A DNA stretch of 64,000 nt, from NCBI RefSeq assembly GCF_030127105.1, contig NZ_CP126161.1:3286001-3350000 (forward strand), read 5' to 3'. The notes under the pieces were generated by a model. It was not told the DNA's origin and searched no databases. It was given only the letters and a program-made list of their open reading frames with translations. Shown piece after piece: positions 44,970 to 64,000 of this stretch; positions within the stretch are counted from its first letter, which is position 1; each line of letters starts with the position of its first letter. Source of the DNA: Haloarcula pelagica. Lineage in GTDB: Archaea; Halobacteriota; Halobacteria; Halobacteriales; Haloarculaceae. Position numbers and translations under genes: made by a program.

Positions 44970-44983
44970 TTAGGCAACCCTAA
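44970..44983 (-). promoter_or_regulatory. Iron box (DtxR/IdeR-like operator) 1
   Basis: TTAGGCAACCCTAA, a match to TTAGGnnnnCCTAA, lies between the TATA-like box and the start of the 51-aa gene. DtxR-family repressors bind such repeats with Fe(II). It is also 83-96 bases before the divergent gene at 45066. Confidence 0.75.
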
Positions 44984-44995
44984 AGACAAAAGGGT

Positions 44996-45009
44996 TTTGG
45001 TACGCCTAA
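44996..45009 (+). promoter_or_regulatory. Iron box 2 (one mismatch)
   Basis: TTTGGTACGCCTAA differs at one position from the TTAGGnnnnCCTAA core. It lies 26 bases from box 1 and about 25 upstream of a TATA-like sequence (near 45037-45043) before the gene at 45066. Two boxes two to three helical turns apart allow cooperative binding. Confidence 0.55.
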
Positions 45010-49262: not shown

Positions 49263-50396
49263 TCAGATATCACCCAGTCGCTGGTTCTTCCGCAACAGGT
49301 AGAGGAAGTACGGGCCACCCAGGAGCCCCGTGACGATCCCGACGGGTAACTGGATCGGCGACAGGGCCAGCCGCGCACCGACATCGGCCGCCGTCACCAG
49401 CGCCGGTCCGACGAACAGACAGCCGACCAGAAGCCGCCGGTAGTCGCTGCCCACGAGGTTCCGGACGAGATGTGGAACCACCAGCCCCACGAACCCGACG
49501 AGGCCGGCGACGGCGACCGATACCGCGGTCGCGAGGATGGCGACCGCCGAGAGGCCAAAGCGAACCCGTTCGACGCGCATCCCGAGCGATCCCGCCGTCC
49601 GCTCGCCGAGCAGGAGGACGTTCAACTGCCGCGAACCGGCGACAGCGAGGCCAAGCACTAGTAGGGTCCAGGGGAGCGCCAGCCGGACATCGCCCCAGTC
49701 GGTGCTCGTCAGCGACCCCGTCAGCCAGGAGAGGGCGGTCTGGACGACGCCCGTGTTGCCGGCGAAGAAGAACAGCCCGGTCTGGAGCGAGTGACAGATC
49801 GTCGTGACGACGACGCCGGCGAGGATGAGCCGGACGGGACTGGTCCCGTTCTGCCAGGCGATGGCGTACACCAGCAGGAAGGCGGCTGTCCCGCCGGCTG
49901 CGGCCACGAACGGGAGGTAGCCCGAGAGGACCGGCAGGAGGATCAACACCGCCAGGACGGCCAGTCCGGCACCGGAGCTGACCCCCAGGATGTACGGGCT
50001 GGCGAGTTCGTTGCGCGTGACTGCCTGGAAGATGGCGCCGGCGGCGGCGAGGTTCGCACCGACCATCACGCCCACGAAGATCCGCGGGATCCGCAGCTTC
50101 CAGACGATCAGTGTCGTGTTGTCGACCTCGGGGAACGGACCGCCCAACAGGAGGTTCGCGAGCACAGACGGGTTCGCGACGACTGCGGGGTCGAAGACGG
50201 CCTCGAACACCATCCGGTCGGTCATCGCGTAGGAGCCGTAGCGGATCTGGACGAACGCGCTCACGGCCAAGACCACGAGGCTCCCGACGACGACCAGCCC
50301 GAGCTGCCTGTCCCGGAGCGACGCCCACAGCCCGACGGTGTGACCACTGCCCGTCGGCCCTCGCTGTCCCGTCCCGACCTGTGTGTCGTCGCTCAT
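49263..50396 (-). CDS. FecCD-family siderophore/cobalamin ABC permease
   Basis: A 377-aa permease of the BtuC/FhuB/FecCD family with about ten hydrophobic segments. Motifs: IPRIFVGVMVGANLAAAGAIFQAVTRNELASPYILGVSSGAGL (in pieces) and the coupling region LGMRVERVRFGLSAVAILATAVSVAVAG, then GLVVPHLVRNLVGSDYRRLLVGC. It imports Fe(III)-siderophore or a related chelate. No FecE-like ATPase is found anywhere near; the second half of the transporter must be supplied from elsewhere. It follows the binding protein by six bases. Confidence 0.92.
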   Translation of the reverse strand: MSDDTQVGTGQRGPTGSGHTVGLWASLRDRQLGLVVVGSLVVLAVSAFVQIRYGSYAMTDRMVFEAVFDPAVVANPSVLANLLLGGPFPEVDNTTLIVWKLRIPRIFVGVMVGANLAAAGAIFQAVTRNELASPYILGVSSGAGLAVLAVLILLPVLSGYLPFVAAAGGTAAFLLVYAIAWQNGTSPVRLILAGVVVTTICHSLQTGLFFFAGNTGVVQTALSWLTGSLTSTDWGDVRLALPWTLLVLGLAVAGSRQLNVLLLGERTAGSLGMRVERVRFGLSAVAILATAVSVAVAGLVGFVGLVVPHLVRNLVGSDYRRLLVGCLFVGPALVTAADVGARLALSPIQLPVGIVTGLLGGPYFLYLLRKNQRLGDI

Positions 50397-50402
50397 CGGA
50401 CC

Positions 50403-51593
50403 TCAGTCGTCTCCGGTGACGATGCCGGCGATGCGGTCCCGGTCGAACAGCTGCCGGTCGCTCGTGACGGCGCCGAAGGTGTCGGGGAACAGCTGTTGGG
50501 CCGCCCGCTCGGTCTGGAAGAAGTTCTGGATCGGTCCCTGGTGGAGGAAGCCGCCGCGGTACACCCGCCCGTTCTGGACGGCGGTGAGTTCGCTGGCCAC
50601 GTCGTGCTCCTCCATGAACGCGAGGACGCTATCGCGGAACTGCTCGGGCGATTTGCGTTCGTGTCCCCGGACCAGTAGGACATCGGGGTCGATCGTCAGC
50701 ATCGCTTCGTAGTCGATCCTCCCGCGGTCGGAGGTGCTGAGTCCGTCGATCTCCGTTCCGGCGAGCGCGTCGGCGACGCCGAGGTCGTGCCACTGTTTCT
50801 TGCTCGTCCCCTTGTCGTTCAGCCGGTACGGCGAGAACTGCTTGGGCTGGTCGCTGCCGGCGTAGGTGAGCAGGACGTTCGGTCGGTCACCGGCCGAGGG
50901 GAGGTCGGTCTGGAGTCCGGTGATGAACTCGTCGTGGTAGGCTTTCAGCGCCTCGTAGCGCTCGCGCTCGTCGAACACCGCGGCGACCTTCTCGAAGGCC
51001 TCGTACAGCGTGTAGTAGCGGTAGTCGTGCCAACTGTCTTCCCGGCGGAAGATGAGGTTCCCGACGAACGGTGCGACGTTGTCGGTGATCTCGTCGACAT
51101 CCGACTGGGTCCAGCCGAACCAGTTGACGAGCATTTTGGGGTCCATCAGATGAACGTCGTTCTCCAGCGCGTAGAACGGCTCCTTGGGGATGGTGTCCCC
51201 CAGTAGTTCGTTCTCGGTGAGCGTCGACCGATCGACGCCCACGCCGTCCAGTTCGTCGTAGACGTAGGTGTAGTACCGGTCGGCGTAGCCGATGCCGGTG
51301 ATCCCGTCCGCCTGGCCCAGCGCGACGGCCATATCGGCGAAGCCGCCGTCGTAGGCGATCCAGCGCTCAGGGACGCTGTCGAAGGTGACCTCCCCGACCG
51401 GCGCCATCGAAACCGAGTACGAGTCCGCACCGGACGCTGTGTCCGTCTCCGTCGGTTCGTCCGTCGGTGTCCCGGAGTCGGTCGCCACATTCGTCGTGGT
51501 ACTCCCGTCGTCGCTCCCGCTGCCCTCGGAACAGCCGGCGATAGCTCCTGTGAGTGCGATCCCGCTCGCTCGAACGAAGTCCCGTCGATCCAT
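50403..51593 (-). CDS. Iron-siderophore ABC substrate-binding lipoprotein
   Basis: A 396-aa Tat-exported lipoprotein: DRRDFVRASGIALTGAIAGC with lipobox Cys20, then a Ser/Thr/Asp linker. The body is of the class III binding fold: APVGEVTFDSVPERWIAYDGGFADMAVALGQADG in parts, ending in DTFGAVTSDRQLFDRDR. This family binds ferric siderophores, haem or cobalamin. Two iron boxes flank its TATA-like box (51601-51614 and 51636-51649), so it should be induced under iron shortage. It heads an operon with the permease. Confidence 0.92.
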   Translation of the reverse strand: MDRRDFVRASGIALTGAIAGCSEGSGSDDGSTTTNVATDSGTPTDEPTETDTASGADSYSVSMAPVGEVTFDSVPERWIAYDGGFADMAVALGQADGITGIGYADRYYTYVYDELDGVGVDRSTLTENELLGDTIPKEPFYALENDVHLMDPKMLVNWFGWTQSDVDEITDNVAPFVGNLIFRREDSWHDYRYYTLYEAFEKVAAVFDERERYEALKAYHDEFITGLQTDLPSAGDRPNVLLTYAGSDQPKQFSPYRLNDKGTSKKQWHDLGVADALAGTEIDGLSTSDRGRIDYEAMLTIDPDVLLVRGHERKSPEQFRDSVLAFMEEHDVASELTAVQNGRVYRGGFLHQGPIQNFFQTERAAQQLFPDTFGAVTSDRQLFDRDRIAGIVTGDD

Positions 51594-51600
51594 ATTCGAT

Positions 51601-51614
51601 TTAGGCTGGCCTAA
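51601..51614 (-). promoter_or_regulatory. Iron box 3
   Basis: TTAGGCTGGCCTAA, a perfect match to TTAGGnnnnCCTAA, eight bases before the binding-protein ATG and downstream of its TATA-like box (near 51618-51625), where a repressor would block initiation. Confidence 0.8.
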
Positions 51615-51635
51615 CTATCTTAAACCTTCCTAACT

Positions 51636-51649
51636 TTAGGCAGGCCGAA
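51636..51649 (-). promoter_or_regulatory. Iron box 4 (one mismatch)
   Basis: TTAGGCAGGCCGAA has one mismatch in the second half. It lies upstream of the TATA-like box, 35 bases from box 3. Confidence 0.6.
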
Positions 51650-54513: not shown

Positions 54514-54527
54514 TTAGGGTGGCCTAA
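54514..54527 (+). promoter_or_regulatory. Iron box 5
   Basis: TTAGGGTGGCCTAA, perfect match, 17-30 bases before the ATG at 54544. A TATA-like TTTATA at 54473-54478 predicts a start of transcription near 54503, so the box lies just downstream of it. Confidence 0.78.
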
Positions 54528-54543
54528 AGAGTACCCGGTAGCG

Positions 54544-55707
54544 ATGGATTCGGACATCTGTGTCGTCATCCCGACGATACGAAACCCAGACTGCACGCGA
54601 GAGTACGTACAGAACGCCCGGGATCACGGGTTCGACACTGATCGGCTCCACTTCGTCCTCGTCACGGAGGAGTTCTGTGACAGCGAGGGGATGGAACAGA
54701 TGCTCGACGAGGAAGGCGTCGATGGGAAGGTCTTCGACGGCCCCGCACGCGAGGCGTGGTTCGCCGATCACGGCGCCGCGGAGTACGCCGACCTGATCCC
54801 GGCGGCCAGCCACGCACAGACCTCCTTCGGCCTGCTGTACCTGTGGGCCAACGACTTCGAGTACGGCGTGTTCATCGACGACGACACCGCGCCCCACGAG
54901 GACGTGGACTTCTTCGGCACCCACATGGAGAACCTGGCCTTCTCGGGCGAGATCGAGACGGTCAGTTCCGACGAGTCCTGGGTCAACGTCCTCTACCAGA
55001 ACGAGGACGACCACGGGCTCTACCCCCGCGGGTACCCCTACGCCGCGATGGACGAGACTGTCGAGACCGAACCCACTCACGTCGACGACGTGGTAGCCTC
55101 CCAGGGGCTGTGGACCAACGTTCCCGACCTCGACGCCGTTCGCATCCTCATGGACGGCGACCTCCAGGGACAGGCCCAGACCCGCACCGAGGCGAGCGAC
55201 TTCGGCGAAGACTTCGTCGCCGCGGAGGGGAACTACCTCACCGTCTGCTCGATGAACCTCGCCTTCCGCCGGGAGGTCGTCCCGGCGTTCTACCAGCTCC
55301 CGATGGACGACAACGAGTGGGACGTGGGCCGGTTCGACGACATCTGGTCCGGCCTCTTCCTCAAGCGCGCCTGTGACGTGCTCGGCAAGCAGATCTACAA
55401 CGGCGACCCGCTCTGTGAGCACAACAAGGCCCCGCGCTCGACGTTCTCGGACCTGACCAACGAGGTCCACGGGCTCGAACTCAACGAGCACGTCTGGGAG
55501 ATCGTCGACGCGGTCGGCGAGGACGCCGACTCCTACGCGGAGGTCTTCGAGGAGATGGGCACAGCCCTGGCGACCGGCGACTTCGGCGACTGGGAAAACG
55601 GTGCCTTCCTCAACTACTGCGGGGAGTTCATGCTCGACTGGCTGGACTGTCTCGATGCGGTCGAAGCCGGGGATGGCGAGCGGGTACCTGCCGCCGCGGA
55701 CGACTAA
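54544..55707 (+). CDS. Reversibly glycosylated polypeptide / UDP-arabinopyranose mutase-like protein (GT75-like)
   Basis: A 387-aa soluble protein with the signatures of plant RGP/UAM proteins: ICVVIPTIRNP at the start, FIDDDTAPHED (DDD at 112-114 for the nucleotide-sugar), RGYPYAAMDE with Arg162 (the arginine glycosylated in RGPs), QGLWTNVPDLDAV, CSMNLAFRREVVP and RFDDIWSGLFLKRACD. The plant family interconverts UDP-arabinopyranose and furanose or glycosylates itself. I infer a nucleotide-sugar mutase or self-glycosylating starter. An in-frame GTG at 54484 lies upstream of the box and is not preferred. It is the first gene of the iron-regulated run. Confidence 0.82.
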   Translation: MDSDICVVIPTIRNPDCTREYVQNARDHGFDTDRLHFVLVTEEFCDSEGMEQMLDEEGVDGKVFDGPAREAWFADHGAAEYADLIPAASHAQTSFGLLYLWANDFEYGVFIDDDTAPHEDVDFFGTHMENLAFSGEIETVSSDESWVNVLYQNEDDHGLYPRGYPYAAMDETVETEPTHVDDVVASQGLWTNVPDLDAVRILMDGDLQGQAQTRTEASDFGEDFVAAEGNYLTVCSMNLAFRREVVPAFYQLPMDDNEWDVGRFDDIWSGLFLKRACDVLGKQIYNGDPLCEHNKAPRSTFSDLTNEVHGLELNEHVWEIVDAVGEDADSYAEVFEEMGTALATGDFGDWENGAFLNYCGEFMLDWLDCLDAVEAGDGERVPAAADD

Positions 55708-55717
55708 AACACAAACC

Positions 55718-55735
55718 ATTTAGGTAAACCTAAAT
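55718..55735 (+). promoter_or_regulatory. Iron box 6 (extended palindrome)
   Basis: ATTTAGGTAAACCTAAAT, an 8+2+8 palindrome with the full TTAGGnnnnCCTAA core (55720-55733), 15-32 bases before the fbpA-type ATG. It may drive or block an internal promoter of the run. Confidence 0.8.
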
Positions 55736-55749
55736 CAACATCACAAACG

Positions 55750-56982
55750 ATGACTGATACCAACGACAGTTCCGCTCGTACCGGATCGTCGCGCCGCCGG
55801 TTCCTCGCGCTCGGGGGGACCACAGCCGCGACCGCACTCGCCGGTTGTGGCTCGCTGTTCGGCGGCGACAACGCCTCGGGCAGCGACGGCGGCTCCGGCA
55901 GCGACGGTGGGGACGGTGCCACCGGCCAGCAGGGGACGAACGTCGAGATCCCGTCCCTGTCCGCGTTCCGCGGCTCGGGGACCCTCGTCGAGGGGCGCCC
56001 GGCACCGGGGGGCACCTCTATCCAGGATCTACCGGACCTCTCGGGTTCGCTGAACCTCTACATCGGGGGCGGCGAAGGAGGCATCTACTTCCAGTTCGTC
56101 GAGATGCTCCAGGAGATCTACCCCGACTTCGAGGTGTTCGCAAGCAGCGCCGCCTCCTCCTCGCTGGCCCAGACCGTCGTCGAGGAGGTCAACGCCGGAT
56201 CGCCACAGGCCGACGTGTTCTGGTCGATCGACGCCAGTTCGCTCGGCTTCGTCGCCGACAACGACGCTTACGAGCCGTTCCCCGACGACGTGGTCAGCCC
56301 GGTCCCCGAGGGCTTCCGTGGGTCGGACAACGCCTGGGTCGGCGTGGCCGGCCGGGCCCGCAGTGTCCCCTACAACACGAACCAACTCAGCGAGAGCGAC
56401 ATCCCGGACAAGGTCGCCGACTTCCCCGACACCGACGCGCTCCGGGGCACGATGGGCTGGGCGCCGACCTACGGCGCGTTCAAGTCTTTCGTGACGGCGA
56501 TGCGTCTGCTGCGGGGCCGCGAGGCCGCCAGGCAGTGGCTGGTCTCGATGCGGGAGGCCGGGACCGAGCAGTACCCCAACGAGTTCGTCGTCTCCAATCA
56601 GGTCGCGGACGGCGCGTTGAACGCCGGCTTCGCCAACCACTACTACGCGCTGCGGGTCCAGAACCAGCGGCCCAACGCCCCGATCGACCTCGCGTTCACG
56701 GAGGGTGACGCGGGGGCGCTGGTCAACGTCGCCGGCGCGCTCCGTATCCAGGGGACCCAGAAGGCCGACCTCGTCAACAACTTCGTCAGGCACCTGCTCT
56801 CGGCGGAGGCCCAGGAGTTCTTCACGACCGTCAGTTTCGCGTACCCGATGATCTCCGGGGTCGAGCCGGCGGGTGGGCTCCCGACCGTCGACCAGCTGAA
56901 CCCGCCGGACATCGATCTATCGGAGCTCTCTGACCTCGAACCGACCCTCCAGCTGATGCGCGAGGCGAACGTCCTCGGATGA
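55750..56982 (+). CDS. fbpA: Fe(III) ABC transporter substrate-binding lipoprotein
   Basis: A 410-aa Tat lipoprotein: SRRRFLALGGTTAATALAGC with lipobox Cys36 and a Gly/Ser/Asp linker. The mature protein is a class II binding fold: LYIGGGEGGIYFQFVEMLQEIYPDFEV, VNAGSPQADVFWSIDASSLG, VPYNTNQL, AFTEGDAGALVNVAGALR and TVSFAYPMISG. These are the marks of FbpA/AfuA-type ferric-ion binding proteins. Tyrosines in SYPMI-like and VSFAYP positions would bind iron. The following permease overlaps its stop by four bases. Confidence 0.9.
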   Translation: MTDTNDSSARTGSSRRRFLALGGTTAATALAGCGSLFGGDNASGSDGGSGSDGGDGATGQQGTNVEIPSLSAFRGSGTLVEGRPAPGGTSIQDLPDLSGSLNLYIGGGEGGIYFQFVEMLQEIYPDFEVFASSAASSSLAQTVVEEVNAGSPQADVFWSIDASSLGFVADNDAYEPFPDDVVSPVPEGFRGSDNAWVGVAGRARSVPYNTNQLSESDIPDKVADFPDTDALRGTMGWAPTYGAFKSFVTAMRLLRGREAARQWLVSMREAGTEQYPNEFVVSNQVADGALNAGFANHYYALRVQNQRPNAPIDLAFTEGDAGALVNVAGALRIQGTQKADLVNNFVRHLLSAEAQEFFTTVSFAYPMISGVEPAGGLPTVDQLNPPDIDLSELSDLEPTLQLMREANVLG

Positions 56983-58598
56983 AGGTCCGGGAGCGCGTCG
57001 CGGCTGTTCGAACGCGTGCCACCGACGATGAGGACTCCGCCGTCGGCCGCGGGCTGACACTCCTGTCGGCGGCCGTCGCGGCGGCCCTCGTCGCGCCGTT
57101 AGGCTGGCTTATCGTCGACGTGTTCGGGCTCGGCTCGCGGGCGCTCTCGCTGACCGTCGCCCCACAGACGCTGCAGGTACTCGTCCGGAGCGTCGCCCTC
57201 GTCGGCGCCGTCACCGCCGGGAGCGTCGTCGTCGGCGTCCCCCTGGCTGTCCTGACGGTCCAGGGCGGACTGCCGTTCCGCAGGTTCTGGACCGTCGTCG
57301 CGGCCCTGCCGCTGGCGATCCCCAGCTACCTCGGCGCCTTCGCGGCCGTCTCGGCGTTTGGCCCCCGCGGGGCACTGGCCGACACGCTCGCGCCGCTGGG
57401 GATCGACCAGGTACCGACGATCTACGGCTTTACCGGCGCCGCTATCGTCCTCACGCTGTACACCTACCCGTACGTCTTCCTGACGACGCGGGCGTCGCTG
57501 CTGTCGCTAGACGCTTCACTCGTCGAGGCCGCACGGACACTCAACGCGAGCCGGTGGGAGGCGTTCCGCCGAGTCACGCTGCCACAGATCCTGCCGGGAA
57601 TCACCGCCGGCGCGCTGCTGGTCGCGCTGTACACCCTCTCGGACTTCGGGACGCCAAACATCATGCGCGTCGAGGTGTTCACGCAGTTCATCTACGCCCG
57701 CTACAACGCGTTCATGCGCGAGTACGCTGCCCTCCTGTCCCTGGAGTTGTTCGCCGTGACCGCCGTCGTCCTCGCGCTCGAATCCCGCACGGGGGCCGAC
57801 GACTCCGGCGCGTACGGCAGCAGCGGCAACCGCGGCGCCTTCGACCTCGATCTGGGGCTGTGGCGCTTCCCGGCGACGCTGTTGCCCGCGCTCGTCGGCG
57901 CGGTGGCAATCTTGCTGCCCATCGCAATCTTCGGGATGTGGTTCCTCCGGAGCGGGCCGGGCTACGCCAGCGGCTCGATGGCTTTCTCGTGGTCCTACGG
58001 GCTCAACTCCGTCTACGTCGCGCTACTGGCTGCCGGCGGTGCGGTCCTCGTGGCGGTCCCCATCGGGCTCCGGTCGGCGACTTCCGAGTCCCGGCTCGCG
58101 TCGCTCGCGGACCGTGCGCCCTACGTCGGGTATGCTGCCCCGGGGATCGTGCTCGCGATCGCGCTCGTGAGTTTCAGCCTCGATGTCCTCCCGGCATTGT
58201 ACAAGACGATCCCGCTGTTGGTGTTTGCCTACGTGGTCCGGTTCATGCCCCAAGCCATCGGCTCGATCCGTACCTCACGGCTCCAGGTCGATCAGGGGCT
58301 CGTCGAGGCGGCCCGCGTCCTGGGCCGGTCCCGGATGGGGACGTTCCGGTCGGTGACGCTCCCGCTCGTGGTACCGGGGATCGCGACCGGTGCGGCGCTG
58401 GTGTTCCTGACGACGATGAAGGAGTTGCCGGCGACATTGCTCCTGCGACCGCTTCGGTTCGACACCCTCGTGACCTACATCTGGCGGGTCCAGGAGGCGG
58501 GGCTGTACGGCGCCGCCGCCGTGCCGGCGCTGGTACTGGTGGTCGTCTCCGGGCTCTCGATGGCGGTCATCCTGGCACAGGAAGGGCGAGGCGACTGA
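56979..58598 (+). CDS. fbpB: Fe(III) ABC transporter permease, FbpB type
   Basis: A 539-aa permease made of two fused copies of the six-helix domain, as in FbpB/SfuB. The two EAA loops are EAARTLNASRWEAFRRVTLP (in the first half) and EAARVLGRSRMGTFRSVTLP (in the second). A polar stretch (about 268-285, DDSGAYGSSGNRGAFDL) separates the halves. It works with the binding protein and the ATPase at 61.4 kb. The first Met is the ATGA overlap with the fbpA-type gene; the next gene starts seven bases after the stop. Confidence 0.92.
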   Translation: MKVRERVAAVRTRATDDEDSAVGRGLTLLSAAVAAALVAPLGWLIVDVFGLGSRALSLTVAPQTLQVLVRSVALVGAVTAGSVVVGVPLAVLTVQGGLPFRRFWTVVAALPLAIPSYLGAFAAVSAFGPRGALADTLAPLGIDQVPTIYGFTGAAIVLTLYTYPYVFLTTRASLLSLDASLVEAARTLNASRWEAFRRVTLPQILPGITAGALLVALYTLSDFGTPNIMRVEVFTQFIYARYNAFMREYAALLSLELFAVTAVVLALESRTGADDSGAYGSSGNRGAFDLDLGLWRFPATLLPALVGAVAILLPIAIFGMWFLRSGPGYASGSMAFSWSYGLNSVYVALLAAGGAVLVAVPIGLRSATSESRLASLADRAPYVGYAAPGIVLAIALVSFSLDVLPALYKTIPLLVFAYVVRFMPQAIGSIRTSRLQVDQGLVEAARVLGRSRMGTFRSVTLPLVVPGIATGAALVFLTTMKELPATLLLRPLRFDTLVTYIWRVQEAGLYGAAAVPALVLVVVSGLSMAVILAQEGRGD

Positions 58599-58605
58599 CG
58601 AGAAG

Positions 58606-60627
58606 ATGACCCGATCAGAGTTCCGCTGGAACCGCCTGGCGACGGCCGCTCTCGCGGTCCTGGCCGCCGCCGCCGTCGCGTTCGTCTCGACGGAGGTGTT
58701 CCCGTACCACTCGCTGAACCACGACGAGGGGGTCTACCTCCAGCAGGCCGCGATGTTGCTCGAGGGACGACTGTTCCTCCAGTCACCGGTCGAGGGGGCC
58801 GTCCGGCCGTGGTTCTTCATCGAGAGCGAGCGCGGGATGTACCCGAAGTACGCGCCCGTCCCGGGGGCGATGTTCGCCGTCGGGAAACTGCTCGGAGGGT
58901 ATCGCGTGGCGCTGGTCGCCATCGCCGCGGGGAACGTCCTCGGCGTCGTCGGGCTCGTTCGGGAAGCGTTCGACTACCGGACGGGGCTGCTCGCCGGCGC
59001 GTTCGTCCTGGCCTCGCCGCTCTTTCTGATCGACTCCTCGGTGTTTCTCCCGTACGCGCCGACGACCCTGCTGAACCTCGCCTTCGGCTACGCGTACCTC
59101 CGCGCGGACCGGACCGGTGACCGGCGGGTCGCGGCCGGGGCCGGGGCGGCGATCGGGCTGGCGTTCTTCTCGCGGCCCTACACCGCGGTGCTGTTCGCGA
59201 CGCCGTTCATCGTCCACGCCTGCTGGACGCTCTGGCAGAACCCCCGCGAGGCGCTCCCGCGGCAGGCGGCGACCGCAACGCTGGGCTCGGCGGGCGTCGT
59301 CCTCACGCTCGGGTACAACGCCGTCGTGACCGGCGCGCCCTTCCGGTTCCCCTACCAGGTGTTCGCGCCGGCGGACGGCCTCGGCTTCGGTCAGCGCGAG
59401 ATCCTCGGCCACGAGATCGTCTACACGCCCGAACTCGCCGTCCGGGCGAACCGGGTGGTACTCGATCTGTTTTTCACCGAGTGGATCGCCGGCGGGCTGG
59501 CGGGGGCCGGCCTCGCGGCCGTCGGCGTCGCCCTCGCCGTGCGGGCCGGACTCACCGCCCGCCAGGCGGTCGTCGGGGGGATCGCTCTCAGCGTCGCGGC
59601 GGGCAACGTCTACTTCTGGGGGAACTACAACATCCTCGGGGACCTCGAAGTCGCAGGCGACGGGCTGGTCTCGGCGCTTGGCCCGTACTATCACTTCGAT
59701 CTGCTGGTCCCGACCGCGGCCTTCGCCGCCCGGGGGGCGCTCGGTGTCGTCCGAGCGATCAAGGACGCGCTCGCCGATCGCGCCGATGGACGGTCCGCGC
59801 GTGTCGCCGTGGCAGCGCTCGTCCTCGTGAGCACCGCGTCGCTGGGCGGGATCACCGCGGGGAACATGGACGCCCCGCTCTCGGAGAACTTGGAGGTGAC
59901 CCGAACTTACGAGGACGCCTACGAGCCCTTCGAGGGCGGTTCGCCCGAAAACGCCGTGGTCCTCCTGCCGGACCCGTACGGCGACTGGCTCAACCATCCG
60001 TTCCAGTACATCCGCAACGATCCGGGGTACGACGGCGACACCGTCTACGCCATCGACGACGAGCCCTTCGCGGTCCACGACGCGTTCCCCGACCGCCGGT
60101 TCTACCGGTACGTCTACCGCGGCGCGTGGGCTCCCTACGCCGGGTCGCCGAGCGCGGCGTACCTCCAGGCGGTCCGTGATGTCGACGGCGAGCAGGTCCG
60201 CCTGGGGACGACCGTGGGGATCCCGGACGGCGCCACTGGCGTCACGGTACGGCTCGGCGTCGACGGCCGGAGCGCCTACTACGTGGTGCCCGACCCCGGC
60301 GAGGAACTGTCGCTGGCCGTCCTCGTGGACGAGCGTGCCAGGCTTCGCGGCGACGCTCGTCCCCTCCAGAACAAGACACTGGCGGTCGACGGCAGGGAGA
60401 CGGTTCGGACGACGGTCTTCGTCGACTACGGCGGTGGGAGTGGCTTCGCTTATCGGTTCGATCTTCCGGTCGACGCCGCGGACGACCGGGTCCGAGCGCT
60501 CACCCCGCGGATCGAGCGGTGTCGTAACGCACGCGCCTGCGGCGGCGCGGCCGCGTACGTCCCCGGGACGGGTCCGAACGGGACCTCAGTCGAGACGAAC
60601 CTGACCGCGGGCGAACGCAATCCATAA
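58606..60627 (+). CDS. GT-C type membrane glycosyltransferase, ArnT/PMT-like
   Basis: A 673-aa protein with about ten hydrophobic segments, then a soluble C-terminal beta-rich part (from about 420). The first outer loop has SLNHDEGVYLQQA, whose Asp-Glu pair is the acidic site typical of GT-C enzymes that use lipid-linked sugars. KLLGGYRVAL, FFSRPYTAVLFATPF and WLNHPFQYIRNDPGYDGDTV are shared with the paralog at 62483. It should move a sugar across or onto an extracellular target. Genes beside it belong to iron uptake, an unusual partnership. Confidence 0.82.
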   Translation: MTRSEFRWNRLATAALAVLAAAAVAFVSTEVFPYHSLNHDEGVYLQQAAMLLEGRLFLQSPVEGAVRPWFFIESERGMYPKYAPVPGAMFAVGKLLGGYRVALVAIAAGNVLGVVGLVREAFDYRTGLLAGAFVLASPLFLIDSSVFLPYAPTTLLNLAFGYAYLRADRTGDRRVAAGAGAAIGLAFFSRPYTAVLFATPFIVHACWTLWQNPREALPRQAATATLGSAGVVLTLGYNAVVTGAPFRFPYQVFAPADGLGFGQREILGHEIVYTPELAVRANRVVLDLFFTEWIAGGLAGAGLAAVGVALAVRAGLTARQAVVGGIALSVAAGNVYFWGNYNILGDLEVAGDGLVSALGPYYHFDLLVPTAAFAARGALGVVRAIKDALADRADGRSARVAVAALVLVSTASLGGITAGNMDAPLSENLEVTRTYEDAYEPFEGGSPENAVVLLPDPYGDWLNHPFQYIRNDPGYDGDTVYAIDDEPFAVHDAFPDRRFYRYVYRGAWAPYAGSPSAAYLQAVRDVDGEQVRLGTTVGIPDGATGVTVRLGVDGRSAYYVVPDPGEELSLAVLVDERARLRGDARPLQNKTLAVDGRETVRTTVFVDYGGGSGFAYRFDLPVDAADDRVRALTPRIERCRNARACGGAAAYVPGTGPNGTSVETNLTAGERNP

Positions 60628-60629
60628 GT

Positions 60630-60643
60630 TTAGGTTTGCCTAA
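60630..60643 (+). promoter_or_regulatory. Iron box 7
   Basis: TTAGGTTTGCCTAA, perfect match, lying directly after a TATA-like CATAAGTT (60623-60630) and 11-24 bases before the ATG at 60654. The TATA spacing to that ATG is about 27 bases, so this is a true promoter and not only an internal site. Confidence 0.8.
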
Positions 60644-60653
60644 CAGATGTCGT

Positions 60654-61226
60654 ATGGAACTGAGTCGTCGGGACGCTATCGCGGCCCTCTCAGCGGCCGG
60701 CGTCGCGGTCGGTGGCGGCGGCGCTGTTCTCCTCGCGACTGACGACAGGAGCGACGCGACTGTGGGGACCGACGACGGGACCGCTACGACCCAGTCGGAG
60801 CCGCTCGGAGAAGACGTATTCCGGACGCTCACGGCGGCGGCCGAAGTGCTCTACCCGACGGAGGTGTCCGGTGCCGACGAGTTCGTCCGCCGGTTCGTCC
60901 GAGGGCGGGCACGCGACCAGCCGGACCACGCGGACGGGATCGCCGACGCGGCCGCGTACCTCGACGAGTACGCCCGAGCGTGGTTCGACGACGAGTTCGC
61001 GGCGCTCTCCCCGGAGACCCGGGACCAAGCGCTCAGACGGATGAACGTCGACACGATCGAACCGGACCCCGACGGGTCGGACGGCCAGCGGGTCCGGTAC
61101 TTCGTCGTCAACGAACTCCTGTTCGCGCTGTACGCCTCCCCGACCGGCGGGAAACTCGTCGGGATCGAGAACCCGCAGGGCCACCCCGGCGGGATACAGA
61201 GCTACCGGCGGGGGCCGGACGCGTGA
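60654..61226 (+). CDS. Tat-exported gluconate 2-dehydrogenase subunit 3-like protein
   Basis: A 190-aa protein: Tat signal LSRRDAIAALSAAGVAVGGGGAVLL in parts, then LTAAAEVLYPTEVSGADEFV, a helical body and the late motif FALYASPTGGKLVGIENPQGHPGGIQSY. The final part is the hallmark of PF13618 (gluconate 2-dehydrogenase subunit 3), the small partner of secreted GMC sugar dehydrogenases. No GMC catalytic gene is in the window; it may lie past the right edge. An extracellular sugar oxidase under iron control suits either electron donation or iron reduction. Confidence 0.85.
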   Translation: MELSRRDAIAALSAAGVAVGGGGAVLLATDDRSDATVGTDDGTATTQSEPLGEDVFRTLTAAAEVLYPTEVSGADEFVRRFVRGRARDQPDHADGIADAAAYLDEYARAWFDDEFAALSPETRDQALRRMNVDTIEPDPDGSDGQRVRYFVVNELLFALYASPTGGKLVGIENPQGHPGGIQSYRRGPDA

Positions 61227-61355
61227 CTCCCAGTCGCCCCGCGGGCGGGTACTGCCGCGATTCCGTCACGTACATGCGACTGGTGTCCCCAGGCAGAGAC
61301 GAGCGACGCCGTCTGCCGGCACCGACCGGCGACGGAACACAGGAGTGCCGATAAT

Positions 61356-62486
61356 ATGTCTCACAGATATCAGGAACAGTACGCCTCGGATTTCGACACA
61401 GTCGAAGCGGCCGTCGACGATCCCGAACGGATCGTCCTCGACGTGAACGGCGTCACGAAAGACTACGGCCAGGAACTGGCCGTCGACGACCTCTCGCTGT
61501 CGGTCAAGGACGGTGAACTGCTCACGCTGTTGGGGCCGTCCGGCTGTGGGAAGACGACGACACTCCGCCTGCTTGCGGGGCTGGAACGGCCCACCGAGGG
61601 GTCGATCTCGATCGCCGGCGAGACGGTCACCGGCGGCGAGGACGGGGGGTTCCGACAGCCCGATCAGCGCGACGTGGGGATCGTCTTCCAGGATTTCGCG
61701 CTGTTTCCCCACCTCACGGTGGCCGAGAACGTCGCCTTCGGGCTCACGGAGGAGGCCGAGATCGAACAGCGGGTGGACACGCTGCTCGATCTGGTCGACC
61801 TCACCGACCACCACGACAAGATGCCGAGCAACCTCTCTGGGGGGCAACAACAGCGGGTCGCGCTGGCCCGGTCGCTGGCGCCCGAACCGGATGTGCTCTT
61901 GCTCGACGAACCGTTCTCGAACCTCGACGTTCGCCTGCGGGTGGAGATGCGCGAGGAGGTCCGCAAGATCCTCAAGCGGGCCGGAGTCACCGCCATCTCG
62001 GTCACCCACGATCAGGAGGAGGCCCTGTCGATCAGCGACCGGGTGGCGATCATGAACGACGGGACCGTCGAACAGATCGGCGACCCGACGACGGTGTTCG
62101 AGAACCCCGAGAGCCGGTTCGTCGCGAGTTTCCTCGGCCAGGCGAGTTTCCTCTCGGCGCAGGTCACGACCAGCGGCGTCGAGACGAGCCTGGGGACGTT
62201 CCCGACCGAGCGACTGAACGGCTCCGTCGGGGCCTACACGGGGGCGACGGTAGACGTGCTCGTCCGGCCCGACGACCTCCGCGCGACGCCGACCAACGAG
62301 GGCACCGCCGACGGCGCAGTCGTCCATCGCCAGTACAACGGTCCGTCGTTCGTCTACCGGGTCGAACTCCACAGCGGCGACGTGGTCCACTGTATGCACA
62401 ACCACGTCGAGACGTTCGAGGCGGGGGAGCCGGTCGAGGTGGATCTCGTCGCCGACCACGAACTGGCGTGGTATCCGGTCGAATGA
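61356..62486 (+). CDS. fbpC: Fe(III) ABC transporter ATP-binding protein
   Basis: A 376-aa ATPase of the CUT1/FbpC group: Walker A GPSGCGKTT, signature LSGGQQQRVALARSL, Walker B VLLLDEPFSNLD, switch His in SVTHDQEEALSISDR, and a C-terminal TOBE-like regulatory domain (from about 250: ETSLGTFPTERL, VLVRPDDLRATP). It powers the FbpA/FbpB pair. The unusual feature is that two other genes separate it from fbpB. Its stop overlaps the next start by four bases. Confidence 0.91.
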   Translation: MSHRYQEQYASDFDTVEAAVDDPERIVLDVNGVTKDYGQELAVDDLSLSVKDGELLTLLGPSGCGKTTTLRLLAGLERPTEGSISIAGETVTGGEDGGFRQPDQRDVGIVFQDFALFPHLTVAENVAFGLTEEAEIEQRVDTLLDLVDLTDHHDKMPSNLSGGQQQRVALARSLAPEPDVLLLDEPFSNLDVRLRVEMREEVRKILKRAGVTAISVTHDQEEALSISDRVAIMNDGTVEQIGDPTTVFENPESRFVASFLGQASFLSAQVTTSGVETSLGTFPTERLNGSVGAYTGATVDVLVRPDDLRATPTNEGTADGAVVHRQYNGPSFVYRVELHSGDVVHCMHNHVETFEAGEPVEVDLVADHELAWYPVE

Positions 62487-64000
62487 GACGACTGCGACGA
62501 CCGGGGGTCCAGGCCGCCGTCGTCGCGTTGCTGGGCGGGCTGGTCGTCTTCGCGCTCGCACACGTCGTTTTCCCGTATCACACGAGCAACCACGACGAGG
62601 GAGTCTACCTCCAGCAGGCCGCGATGTTGCTGGAGGGGCGACTGTTCCTCCGTCCGCCCGTCGAAGACGTGTTCCGCCCGTGGTTCTTCGTCGAGAGCCC
62701 ACGGGGCCTGTACGCGAAGTACACGCCGGTCCCGGCCGCGATGTTCGCCGTCGGGAAACTGCTCGGGGGGTATCGCGTGGCGCTCGGGCTCGTGGCCACG
62801 GGTACCCTCGCGGGGCTGTACCACACCACTCGTGAGGCGTTCGACGCGCGGACCGGCGTCGTCGCGAGCGTCCTGTTGCTCGCGTCGCCGCTGTTCCTGG
62901 TCAACGCTGCGGTGTTTCTCTCCTACGTCCCGGCGACGTTCTGGAACCTCGCGTTCGCCGCGAGCTACCTCCGTGCCGACCGGACGGGGAGCCGCCCGCT
63001 CGCCGCGCTGGCGGGTGCCTGTGCCGGGATCGCCTTCTTCACCCGACCGTACACCGCGGTGCTGTTCGCGACGCCGTTTATCTGTCACGCCCTCTGGTCG
63101 TGCCGGCGGCTCCGCCGGGCGCCCCTCGAACGGGTCGGTCTCACCGCCGTCTTCGGCACCGCCGGCGTCCTGCTGGCGCTGGGGTACAACACCCTCACCA
63201 CGGGCGACCCGCTGGTCTTTCCGTACCAGGCGTTCGCCCCCAACGACGGGCTCGGCTTCGGGCGACGGTCGATCTTAGCGTACTCGCGGGAGTTCACCCC
63301 CGCACTCTCCGTGCGGGCCAACGGGGAACTCCTCCGGAAACTCGCCACGCAGTGGCTGGTCGCCGGGCCGCTCGGGACCGTCGCCGCGGCGGTGGGGGTG
63401 GCCGTCACGCGCCGCCGTGGGTTCGACAGTCGGCAGGCGGCGCTCGCGGGGGTGTTCCTGACCGTCCCGCTGGGGAACCTCTACTTCTGGGGGACGGTCA
63501 ACATGCTCGGCACCATCTCGGACCCGACCGACGGGCTCGTGCGCTTCCTGGGCCCGTTCTACCACGTCGACGTGCTCGTCCCCGCCGCCGCGTTCGGTGC
63601 CGTCGGGAGCCTGTGGGTCGCCCGTGGGCTCCGGACGGCGGTCGAGGACCGGGTTCGGCCCCGGCGGGTCCGGCCCGTCCTCCTCGTAGTCGCGCTCGTC
63701 TGTGCGACGGTCGGGGGTGGTGTCGCCGTGACGGCCGCCGCCGAGCCGGTTCGGGACAACTACGTCGTCACCGAGCAGTACGACCGGGCGTACGAACCCT
63801 TCGAGGAACGGGATCTCTCGGACGCTGTCGTCTTCCTCCCGACGCCGTACGGCGATTGGCTGCACCACCCGTTCCAGTACCTCCGCAACGACCCCGGCTT
63901 CGACGGTGACACGGTGTACGCGATGGGCGACAGGCAGTTCGCGGTGGTCGACAACTACCCCGACCGGCGGTACTACCGCTACGACTACCGGGACGAGTGG
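62483..64000 (+). CDS. GT-C type membrane glycosyltransferase, paralog, cut by the window edge
   Basis: The first 506 codons of a protein paralogous to the one at 58606. Same marks: SNHDEGVYLQQAAMLLEGRLF, KLLGGYRVAL, FFTRPYTAVLFATPF and LHHPFQYLRNDPGFDGDTV. About ten hydrophobic segments are seen. The DNA shares a 27-base identical run (59181-59207 with 63052-63078) with its paralog, so duplication or gene conversion is likely. It overlaps the ATPase gene by four bases, so it belongs to the same transcript. Confidence 0.82.
   Translation, partial: MRRLRRPGVQAAVVALLGGLVVFALAHVVFPYHTSNHDEGVYLQQAAMLLEGRLFLRPPVEDVFRPWFFVESPRGLYAKYTPVPAAMFAVGKLLGGYRVALGLVATGTLAGLYHTTREAFDARTGVVASVLLLASPLFLVNAAVFLSYVPATFWNLAFAASYLRADRTGSRPLAALAGACAGIAFFTRPYTAVLFATPFICHALWSCRRLRRAPLERVGLTAVFGTAGVLLALGYNTLTTGDPLVFPYQAFAPNDGLGFGRRSILAYSREFTPALSVRANGELLRKLATQWLVAGPLGTVAAAVGVAVTRRRGFDSRQAALAGVFLTVPLGNLYFWGTVNMLGTISDPTDGLVRFLGPFYHVDVLVPAAAFGAVGSLWVARGLRTAVEDRVRPRRVRPVLLVVALVCATVGGGVAVTAAAEPVRDNYVVTEQYDRAYEPFEERDLSDAVVFLPTPYGDWLHHPFQYLRNDPGFDGDTVYAMGDRQFAVVDNYPDRRYYRYDYRDEW

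Follow-up and report, generated by a model that had tools for sequence, protein, structure and literature searches.

Why do predicted glycosyltransferase genes lie within a run of genes for ferric iron import in a haloarchaeon? The question arises at the right-hand end of a 64,000-nucleotide stretch of the 4.46 Mb genome of Haloarcula pelagica, hereafter the window (G000:C1:3286001-3350000; features are given in window numbering). There, as an earlier note on this DNA had described, an RGP-family protein is followed by FbpA, FbpB, a GT-C glycosyltransferase (GT-C1), a Gluconate_2-dh3 protein, FbpC and a second GT-C (GT-C2), under three perfect copies of an iron box. Gene calls and domain matches bear out this order, and all three boxes are present (Table 1). 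Sequence comparison, as detailed below, argues for a dedicated pathway of extracytoplasmic glycosylation under iron control that is attached to the haloarchaeal Fbp importer and distributed far more widely than the window.

Linkage of the sugar genes to fbpA and their co-inheritance

RGP was found in 306 of the 391 genomes sampled from the class (about three quarters), with best E values below 1e-150. All 17 matches to PF03214 in a phylum sample of 120 genomes fell within the order of the window, and the single match among 14 named controls came from Haloferax volcanii. The closest named matches of the window RGP are from Haloarcula and Halomicroarcula; public records label its relatives 'alpha-1 4-glucan-protein synthase'. 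Gene neighborhoods were compared at 131 RGP loci, made up of 40 stretches representing about one genome per genus, the best 80 of 209 named matches, the window itself and 10 of 16 further loci. The choice was not random, and some species are represented by both named and unnamed records; it yielded 125 distinct RGP sequences. At each of the 125 distinct loci, the gene immediately following RGP on its strand is fbpA, the gap between them having a median of 67 nucleotides and a maximum of 393. Where the sequence downstream of RGP extends for 9.5 kb or more (115 loci), genes within 10.5 kb of RGP code for GT-C in 114 cases, FbpB in 111, a GT2 glycosyltransferase in 98, Gluconate_2-dh3 in 86, FbpC in 65 and a GMC flavoprotein in 57. 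The linkage that the earlier note had suggested looking for in other haloarchaea is thus found there. GT2 is often convergent to the run and usually carries a box of its own. On the Salarchaeum plasmid pJOR178, eight co-directional genes with 4 perfect boxes are ordered RGP, FbpA, FbpB, FbpC, GT39, Gluconate_2-dh3, GMC and dolichyl-phosphate hexose transferase, and seven Halobaculum records place RGP on a plasmid with an fbpA match adjoining it by coordinates (two of these were examined in detail). The median pairwise identity was 0.75-0.77 for RGP, GT2 and GMC, as compared with 0.53 for FbpA and 0.48 for GT-C.

The co-inheritance of RGP (the GT75 mutase), GT2 and GT-C, here called the trio, was assessed in every fourth RGP-positive genome (77 of the 306) and in 80 of the 85 RGP-negative genomes. 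GT-C was present in 77/77 of the former and in 0/80 of the latter, save for one 108-residue fragment (E 3.5e-4). Likewise, a GT2 orthologue with 67-90% identity was detected in each of the 77 RGP-positive genomes, and the 80 RGP-negative genomes contained GT2 paralogues only (best E 1.8e-29, 36% identity). Since 19 genera, by a hand count, hold both RGP states, the three genes have probably been gained or lost jointly, and repeatedly, a view drawn from these counts rather than from a tree.

A link of the trio with siderophore synthesis was also considered and set aside, the association being weak and negative. In a separate case, a member of the Halobacteriaceae encodes a second RGP-family protein (L215, G010:C2:1525556-1526527) with a PF03214 score of 452 bits, the module RGP of that genome scoring 56; a protein so much nearer to the family model was possibly acquired by horizontal transfer.

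Iron boxes and the genes behind them

The box has the pattern TTAGG-N4-CCTAA. In addition to the three copies in the run, the window has perfect copies at 44970 and 51601, and a version with a 5-base spacer was absent from the window with up to one mismatch allowed. The genome has 16 perfect boxes, against 1 for the reversed control. Behind the 11 boxes outside the window we found the gene for a DtxR-type iron-dependent repressor (PF01325), a NifU-like gene, 5 Peripla_BP_2 genes (one of them matching below the Pfam cut-off), and two instances each of a FecCD operon and a GMC gene; the box at C1:940405 could not be assigned to a gene. In this genome, then, the same box precedes iron genes and the PF01325 repressor gene, as expected of a DtxR-family regulon, and the composition of the regulon suggests that the box responds to iron. 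These results agree with the earlier proposal of a single unit joining Fe(III) import and glycan enzymes under the iron box.

Across the distinct loci, a box with at most one mismatch precedes RGP (124/125), FbpA (105/125), GT2 (94/101) and a flippase-like LPG_synthase_TM protein (47/48), and is found before Gluconate_2-dh3 in 62/87 cases, FbpB in 30/113 and GMC in 1/57. None was found before GT-C (0/127), FbpC (0/80) or an epimerase (0/32); locus maps place GT-C and FbpC usually downstream within the run. Background tiles of the same loci have a box in 53 of 10588 cases, and 491 of 952 upstream regions contain one, versus 27, 2 and 1 for control patterns made by reversing or scrambling it. 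Relative to the start codons, the module boxes lie at -30 to -17 or -24 to -11, where they would cover the promoters of leaderless archaeal mRNAs. From linkage, boxes and co-inheritance, we consider it very probable that RGP, GT2 and GT-C make up a single glycosylation pathway that is controlled by iron and serves the Fbp importer.

Boxes also mark other genes. The window has a perfect box (44970-44983) beside a one-mismatch box (44996-45009), upstream of the run and outside the finding, and a perfect plus a one-mismatch box (51601-51649) before minus-strand genes (49263-51593) whose translations resemble a binding protein and a permease of the siderophore type; iron genes are thus plentiful throughout the stretch. 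The boxed loci L212 (G000:C1:8400-14400) and L213 (G000:C1:3458200-3464200), close to either end of C1, are near-identical, with GMC frameshifted at different places. They probably represent the redundant ends of one circular chromosome, marred by sequencing errors, an interpretation that would also agree with the contamination value of 4.77%. What appears to be the same boxed siderophore FecCD operon occurs near both ends of C2 (L208, G000:C2:27800-33800; L211, C2:461700-467700), perhaps through assembly overlap or duplication. A plasmid of Haladaptatus halobius carries a boxed FbpABC operon with no RGP nearby (L220, 4408-11617), adjoined by DpsA, a ferritin-like protein and two metal-dependent regulators.

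Predicted enzymes and a candidate acceptor on FbpA

The RGP proteins are predicted to be GT75 mutases acting on nucleoside diphosphate (NDP) sugars. The DDD motif and the equivalents of Arg159, Ser228, Arg257, Asp260 and His287 are invariant at the 131 loci (the window being counted twice); Asp87, Gln229, Arg289 and His292 of the mutase MtdL align with His, Met, Lys and Arg in the window RGP. Roles of catalytic residues in MtdL, a GT75 mutase, are given in the excerpts of PMC9937993. The GT2 scores 401.1 bits, against a cut-off of 375, with the model NF041391, 'dolichyl-phosphate hexose transferase'. Its identification with AepG (HAH_1206) was rejected: AepG is predicted to have two membrane segments at its C terminus and sits in an agl cluster, and the GT2 that follows the window, P0008, has no hydrophobic segment.

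The GT-C proteins combine a membrane fold with an acidic [HD]-D-E motif in the first outer loop, as in the ArnT/PMT/OST superfamily. In Foldseek searches, the model of GT-C1 (pLDDT 85.8) was nearest to ArnT (5f15, E 3.7e-7), followed by OST, ALG, EmbB/AftB and PMT; with only about 9-15% identity to the significant matches, this is an assignment to the superfamily and not to a subfamily. Alignment with VIA-align gave Z scores of 27.2 for OST (root-mean-square deviation 4.8, 419 residues aligned), 24.2 for ArnT (4.7, 425), 22.6 for PMT (4.3, 367) and 19.1 for AftB (4.2, 373). A sequence search of the PDB with GT-C1 returned nothing meaningful (best E 0.053). For the DUF7846 domain alone (model pLDDT 80.3), Foldseek returned no match under E 1e-3 (best 5.9e-3); as modeled, the fold of this outer beta domain lacks a confident match, and it is not claimed as new. 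ArnT-, OST- and PMT-type relatives use lipid-phosphate or lipid-diphosphate donors. By analogy with them, GT-C would face outward and use a lipid-linked sugar, and its co-inheritance with GT2 suggests that the donor is a lipid-phosphate monosaccharide.

A secreted sugar oxidase, which the earlier note proposed, was not upheld. The Gluconate_2-dh3 protein of the window is of the small, Tat-carrying subunit type and is not itself an oxidase, and the catalytic GMC subunit is absent beside it. The two genes adjoin at L129 and L221, for example, and the pair resembles flavin adenine dinucleotide (FAD)-dependent glucose/fructose dehydrogenase (E 2e-89), with a three-Cys motif in 62/62. In the window genome, matching GMC flavoprotein genes lie elsewhere, each behind a perfect box.

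At Natrinema-type loci, an epimerase and a flippase-like protein of PF03706, a family that we take to be UPF0104, directly precede RGP. According to Table 1 of PMC11349517, the proteins that rise most when H. volcanii is starved of iron include a GalE-family epimerase (HVO_0655, +12.7) and a UPF0104 protein (HVO_1859, +11.6). In Haloferax mediterranei, an iron(III)-binding ABC gene fell together with an iron-uptake set during denitrification, according to the excerpts of PMC11218638.

The exported protein that always stands beside the pathway is FbpA. Its Tyr pair (N-H-Y-Y), presumably the iron ligands, is present at 130/131 loci. The linker between the lipobox Cys and the binding domain is variable except for a G-S-G motif (Gly 100%, Ser 98%, Gly 98%; n = 125), which lies 18-47 residues from the lipobox Cys and is kept in two FbpA subtypes with differing flanks (FRGSGPLV and QIGSGR). 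The middle residue is Ser in 123 of the 125 trio-positive proteins and Tyr in the other 2. A linker position of this kind would suit a membrane GT-C. The eight closest RGP-negative FbpA have S, D, S, D, S, D, D and N at the Ser position, a change in 5/8 (Fisher p 3.5e-6 against the trio-positive proteins, with no kinship correction and a small negative sample); among the other 22 RGP-negative FbpA, one is truncated ahead of the linker, and G-S-G is not seen at that position in any. That Ser76 of FbpA is a sugar acceptor is, on this conservation, plausible but somewhat short of probable.

These elements can be assembled into a scheme. At low iron, the DtxR-type repressor would leave the boxes overlapping the promoters, and FbpABC and the glycosylation line would be made together. 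The GT75 enzyme would supply an NDP-sugar, probably by conversion of a pyranose to a furanose, and GT2 would load the sugar onto dolichyl phosphate at the inner face of the membrane. The lipid-linked sugar would be flipped by the boxed flippase-like protein in some lineages, and otherwise by another flippase. Transfer of the sugar to an acceptor at the outer face would then fall to the ArnT/PMT-like GT-C, which has an outer beta domain; the acceptor would most likely be FbpA, at the Ser of G-S-G between the lipid anchor and the binding domain. The sugar on FbpA would shield the binding protein under the S-layer or set its spacing or position there. On the explanation as a whole, an iron-controlled glycosylation line with FbpA as the most likely acceptor, our judgment is evenly divided. 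We put forward more tentatively the full statement that most haloarchaea O-glycosylate FbpA at the linker Ser (or Tyr), with a probably furanose sugar, by a GT75/GT2/DUF7846 GT-C line induced by iron starvation.

Several observations weigh against such a role of FbpA or against parts of the scheme. Ser is retained in 3/8 of the closest trio-negative FbpA, and two Haladaptatus plasmid FbpA, not adjoining RGP and with no evident lipobox, carry G-S-G. The motif also occurs elsewhere in these Gly-Ser linkers (19 in 3065 residues), and there is no Ser/Thr excess in the linker of trio-positive FbpA (0.159 vs 0.149). Because the Ser codons at G-S-G are all TCN, codon-class switching lends Ser76 no extra support. 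FbpA as an N-glycoprotein, as a general rule, was rejected, in that no sequon is widely shared: the best column has one in 30/125, versus 25/30 in the negatives. An FbpA homologue (E 1e-25 or better) is kept by 61/80 RGP-negative genomes, and in 30 such stretches, with flanks of about 1.5 kb, fbpB was adjacent in 30/30 and a box was present in 20/30. Since FbpA/FbpB pairs occur without the trio, Fbp transport as such needs no sugar; the sugar pathway seems to depend on the company of the importer, and not the importer on the sugar. An own box is missing from 20/125 FbpA and from the 127 GT-C. In the window genome, the search for the flippase-like protein of the other loci gave only an AglD-like fusion with no box. 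Finally, the H. volcanii iron-starvation table of PMC11349517, which lists changes of at least tenfold only, does not name RGP, GT2 or GT-C.

The earlier note had proposed a sugar-modified surface polymer or glycoprotein that gathers iron. On such a model, the pathway would decorate an S-layer glycoprotein, a glycolipid or an exopolysaccharide with an Fe(III)-binding sugar near FbpA, and a secreted FAD dehydrogenase would reduce or free the iron. We regard this as possible, if rather unlikely. All the enzymes are of surface-glycan types, the GMC and Gluconate_2-dh3 genes share the iron boxes, and siderophore-synthesis genes are somewhat rarer in genomes with the trio (77/306 vs 33/85; Fisher p 0.02, with no kinship correction). 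Moreover, the excerpts of PMC9943897 describe an O-linked S-layer disaccharide in Haloarcula hispanica, together with an acidic exopolysaccharide made from dolichyl phosphate-glucuronic acid; however, the synthase of that donor, AepG, is a different GT2, in an agl cluster. The families recurring around RGP also include no obvious polymerase, although no search aimed at polymerases was made. Sugar transfer to an acceptor on the membrane side, such as FbpA, fits the sequence evidence at least as well, because that evidence comprises a lipid-phosphate sugar synthase, an ArnT/PMT/OST-like GT-C and a near-invariant Ser in FbpA.

The boxes alone indicate co-regulation only, and GT2 is unlinked from RGP in several genomes, at least one of which (L195) nevertheless has a perfect box before it. 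Both points would fit a remodeling of the envelope under iron stress that is merely co-regulated and clustered with iron import, the sugar having no part in uptake. We find this explanation improbable, as RGP adjoins FbpA in 125/125 cases and not the operons of siderophore type which carry the same box in the window genome, and as the RGP-FbpA linkage is kept on plasmids too. That the box is common to siderophore-type uptake genes could also speak for a small-molecule target, for example a siderophore or a citrate-like chelator, instead of a macromolecule. Yet the final enzyme has the modeled fold of a membrane GT-C and the trio shows no positive association with siderophore-synthesis genes, and we hold such a target to be highly improbable. 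Glycosylation serving the Fbp importer remains our preferred reading, with FbpA as its foremost candidate acceptor.

The locus in the window and related systems

Table 1. Features of the iron-boxed run, in window numbering
Feature	Position	Strand	Remarks
Iron box 1 (TTAGGGTGGCCTAA)	54514..54527	.	perfect match; -30 to -17 from RGP start codon
GT75 / RGP-type NDP-sugar pyranose-furanose mutase (predicted; P0001)	54544..55707	+	PF03214 E 7.7e-17; MtdL 7xpr E 1.1e-23
Iron box 2 (TTAGGTAAACCTAA)	55720..55733	.	perfect match; -30 to -17 from fbpA start codon
FbpA, Tat/lipobox ferric-binding lipoprotein	55750..56982	+	phmmer to FbpA 7w3w E 3e-47, residues 128-409
FbpA G-S-G motif, candidate sugar acceptor	55972..55980	+	Ser76 codon at 55975-55977
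FbpB, two-domain permease	56979..58598	+	PF00528 in two stretches, E 7.1e-28
GT-C1 glycosyltransferase (PMT_2 + DUF7846)	58606..60627	+	PF13231, PF25230
Iron box 3 (TTAGGTTTGCCTAA)	60630..60643	.	perfect match; -24 to -11 from Gluconate_2-dh3 start codon
Tat-signal Gluconate_2-dh3 protein (small subunit, FAD-dependent sugar dehydrogenase type)	60654..61226	+	PF13618 E 1.7e-9
FbpC, ABC ATPase	61356..62486	+	PF00005 + TOBE_2
GT-C2 glycosyltransferase	62483..64498 (window part to 64000)	+	PMT_2 + DUF7846
GT2 (P0008, 236 residues)	64550-65260 (C1:3350550-3351260)	minus	convergent with the run; directly past GT-C2

The run stops at the end of GT-C2, beyond the window edge. The earlier note had advised a look past position 64000, and the convergent GT2 indeed follows there, with a one-mismatch box 34 base pairs before its start. 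Of the start-stop overlaps that it described among several genes, those at fbpA/fbpB and fbpC/GT-C2 are present, each of 4 nucleotides; the remaining junctions are gaps of 42, 7, 26 and 129 nucleotides.

From the separation of fbpB from fbpC the earlier note had concluded that the genes are one unit. This argument carries little weight, since the split looks like a local rearrangement: among the loci compared it is common to the window and three close relatives (L035, L076 and L078), and elsewhere the two genes mostly adjoin, or fbpB is found several kb off. Outside these three relatives, fbpA, fbpB and GT-C1 are most like genes of Haloferacaceae XH8, Salarchaeum (L073), Halosimplex or Natrinema (for FbpB, with identities of, for example, 84% and 79%). 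RGP, FbpC, GT-C2 and GT2 are most like those of Haloarcula, GT-C2 being closest to the single GT-C of other members of the genus, and Gluconate_2-dh3 is ambiguous. These identities, in place of a tree, suggest that the second GT-C and the fbpB/fbpC split reflect replacement by a foreign segment through recombination, and not the general plan.

The literature search gave no description of this system, in agreement with what the earlier note had supposed for archaea; iron-regulon tables and supplements were outside its coverage, and an earlier listing of some of the genes is possible. Word searches within PMC5867893 and PMC12029414 returned nothing on it. The pathway would tie iron acquisition to dolichol-based glycosylation, apparently studied apart in archaea so far, and offers a proposed function for 'alpha-1 4-glucan-protein synthase', for a DUF7846 GT-C and for a dolichyl-phosphate hexose transferase. 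If the reading of FbpA is true, it would be a dedicated, iron-regulated protein glycosylation serving a nutrient-binding protein.

Each part of the system has known counterparts. As in FbpABC/FutABC importers, FbpA shows homology to Fe(III)-binding proteins of solved structure and has the Tyr-Tyr pair, and it is accompanied by a two-domain permease and a TOBE ATPase, with transport predicted here; unlike them, the archaeal FbpA combines Tat and lipobox signals with a conserved G-S-G linker, and a GT75 gene precedes and GT-C genes follow. The box before iron genes and the PF01325 repressor resemble the haloarchaeal DtxR-family (FerR/Idr) regulon, a likeness that lies in the genes behind the box. 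The Tat small subunit and the GMC flavoprotein with its three-Cys motif are like FAD-dependent glucose/fructose/gluconate dehydrogenases, except that iron boxes precede the genes here. With the GT75 mutases (plant UAM/RGP, MtdL, Hyg20), the predicted mutase shares the Pfam family RGP and the DDD, Arg, Ser, Arg, Asp and His residues; it differs from them in the replacement of four MtdL residues and in its co-inheritance with a lipid-phosphate GT2. In mycobacteria, decaprenyl-phosphate-arabinofuranose is a furanose lipid-phosphate donor for the GT-C arabinosyltransferases AftA/B and EmbB. GT-C1 matches EmbB/AftB in fold, whereas its donor would come from a DPM1-like GT2. By family, the pathway also resembles the AglD-AglR-AglS route of Haloferax (a dolichyl phosphate-mannose synthase, a flippase-related protein and a GT-C), in which, according to the excerpts of PMC3871713, a GT2 charges dolichyl phosphate with one sugar, which crosses the membrane and is passed on at the outer face by a GT-C. 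GT2 and GT-C would take the same parts here; the route proposed here differs in its iron boxes, its GT75 mutase and a GT-C with DUF7846.

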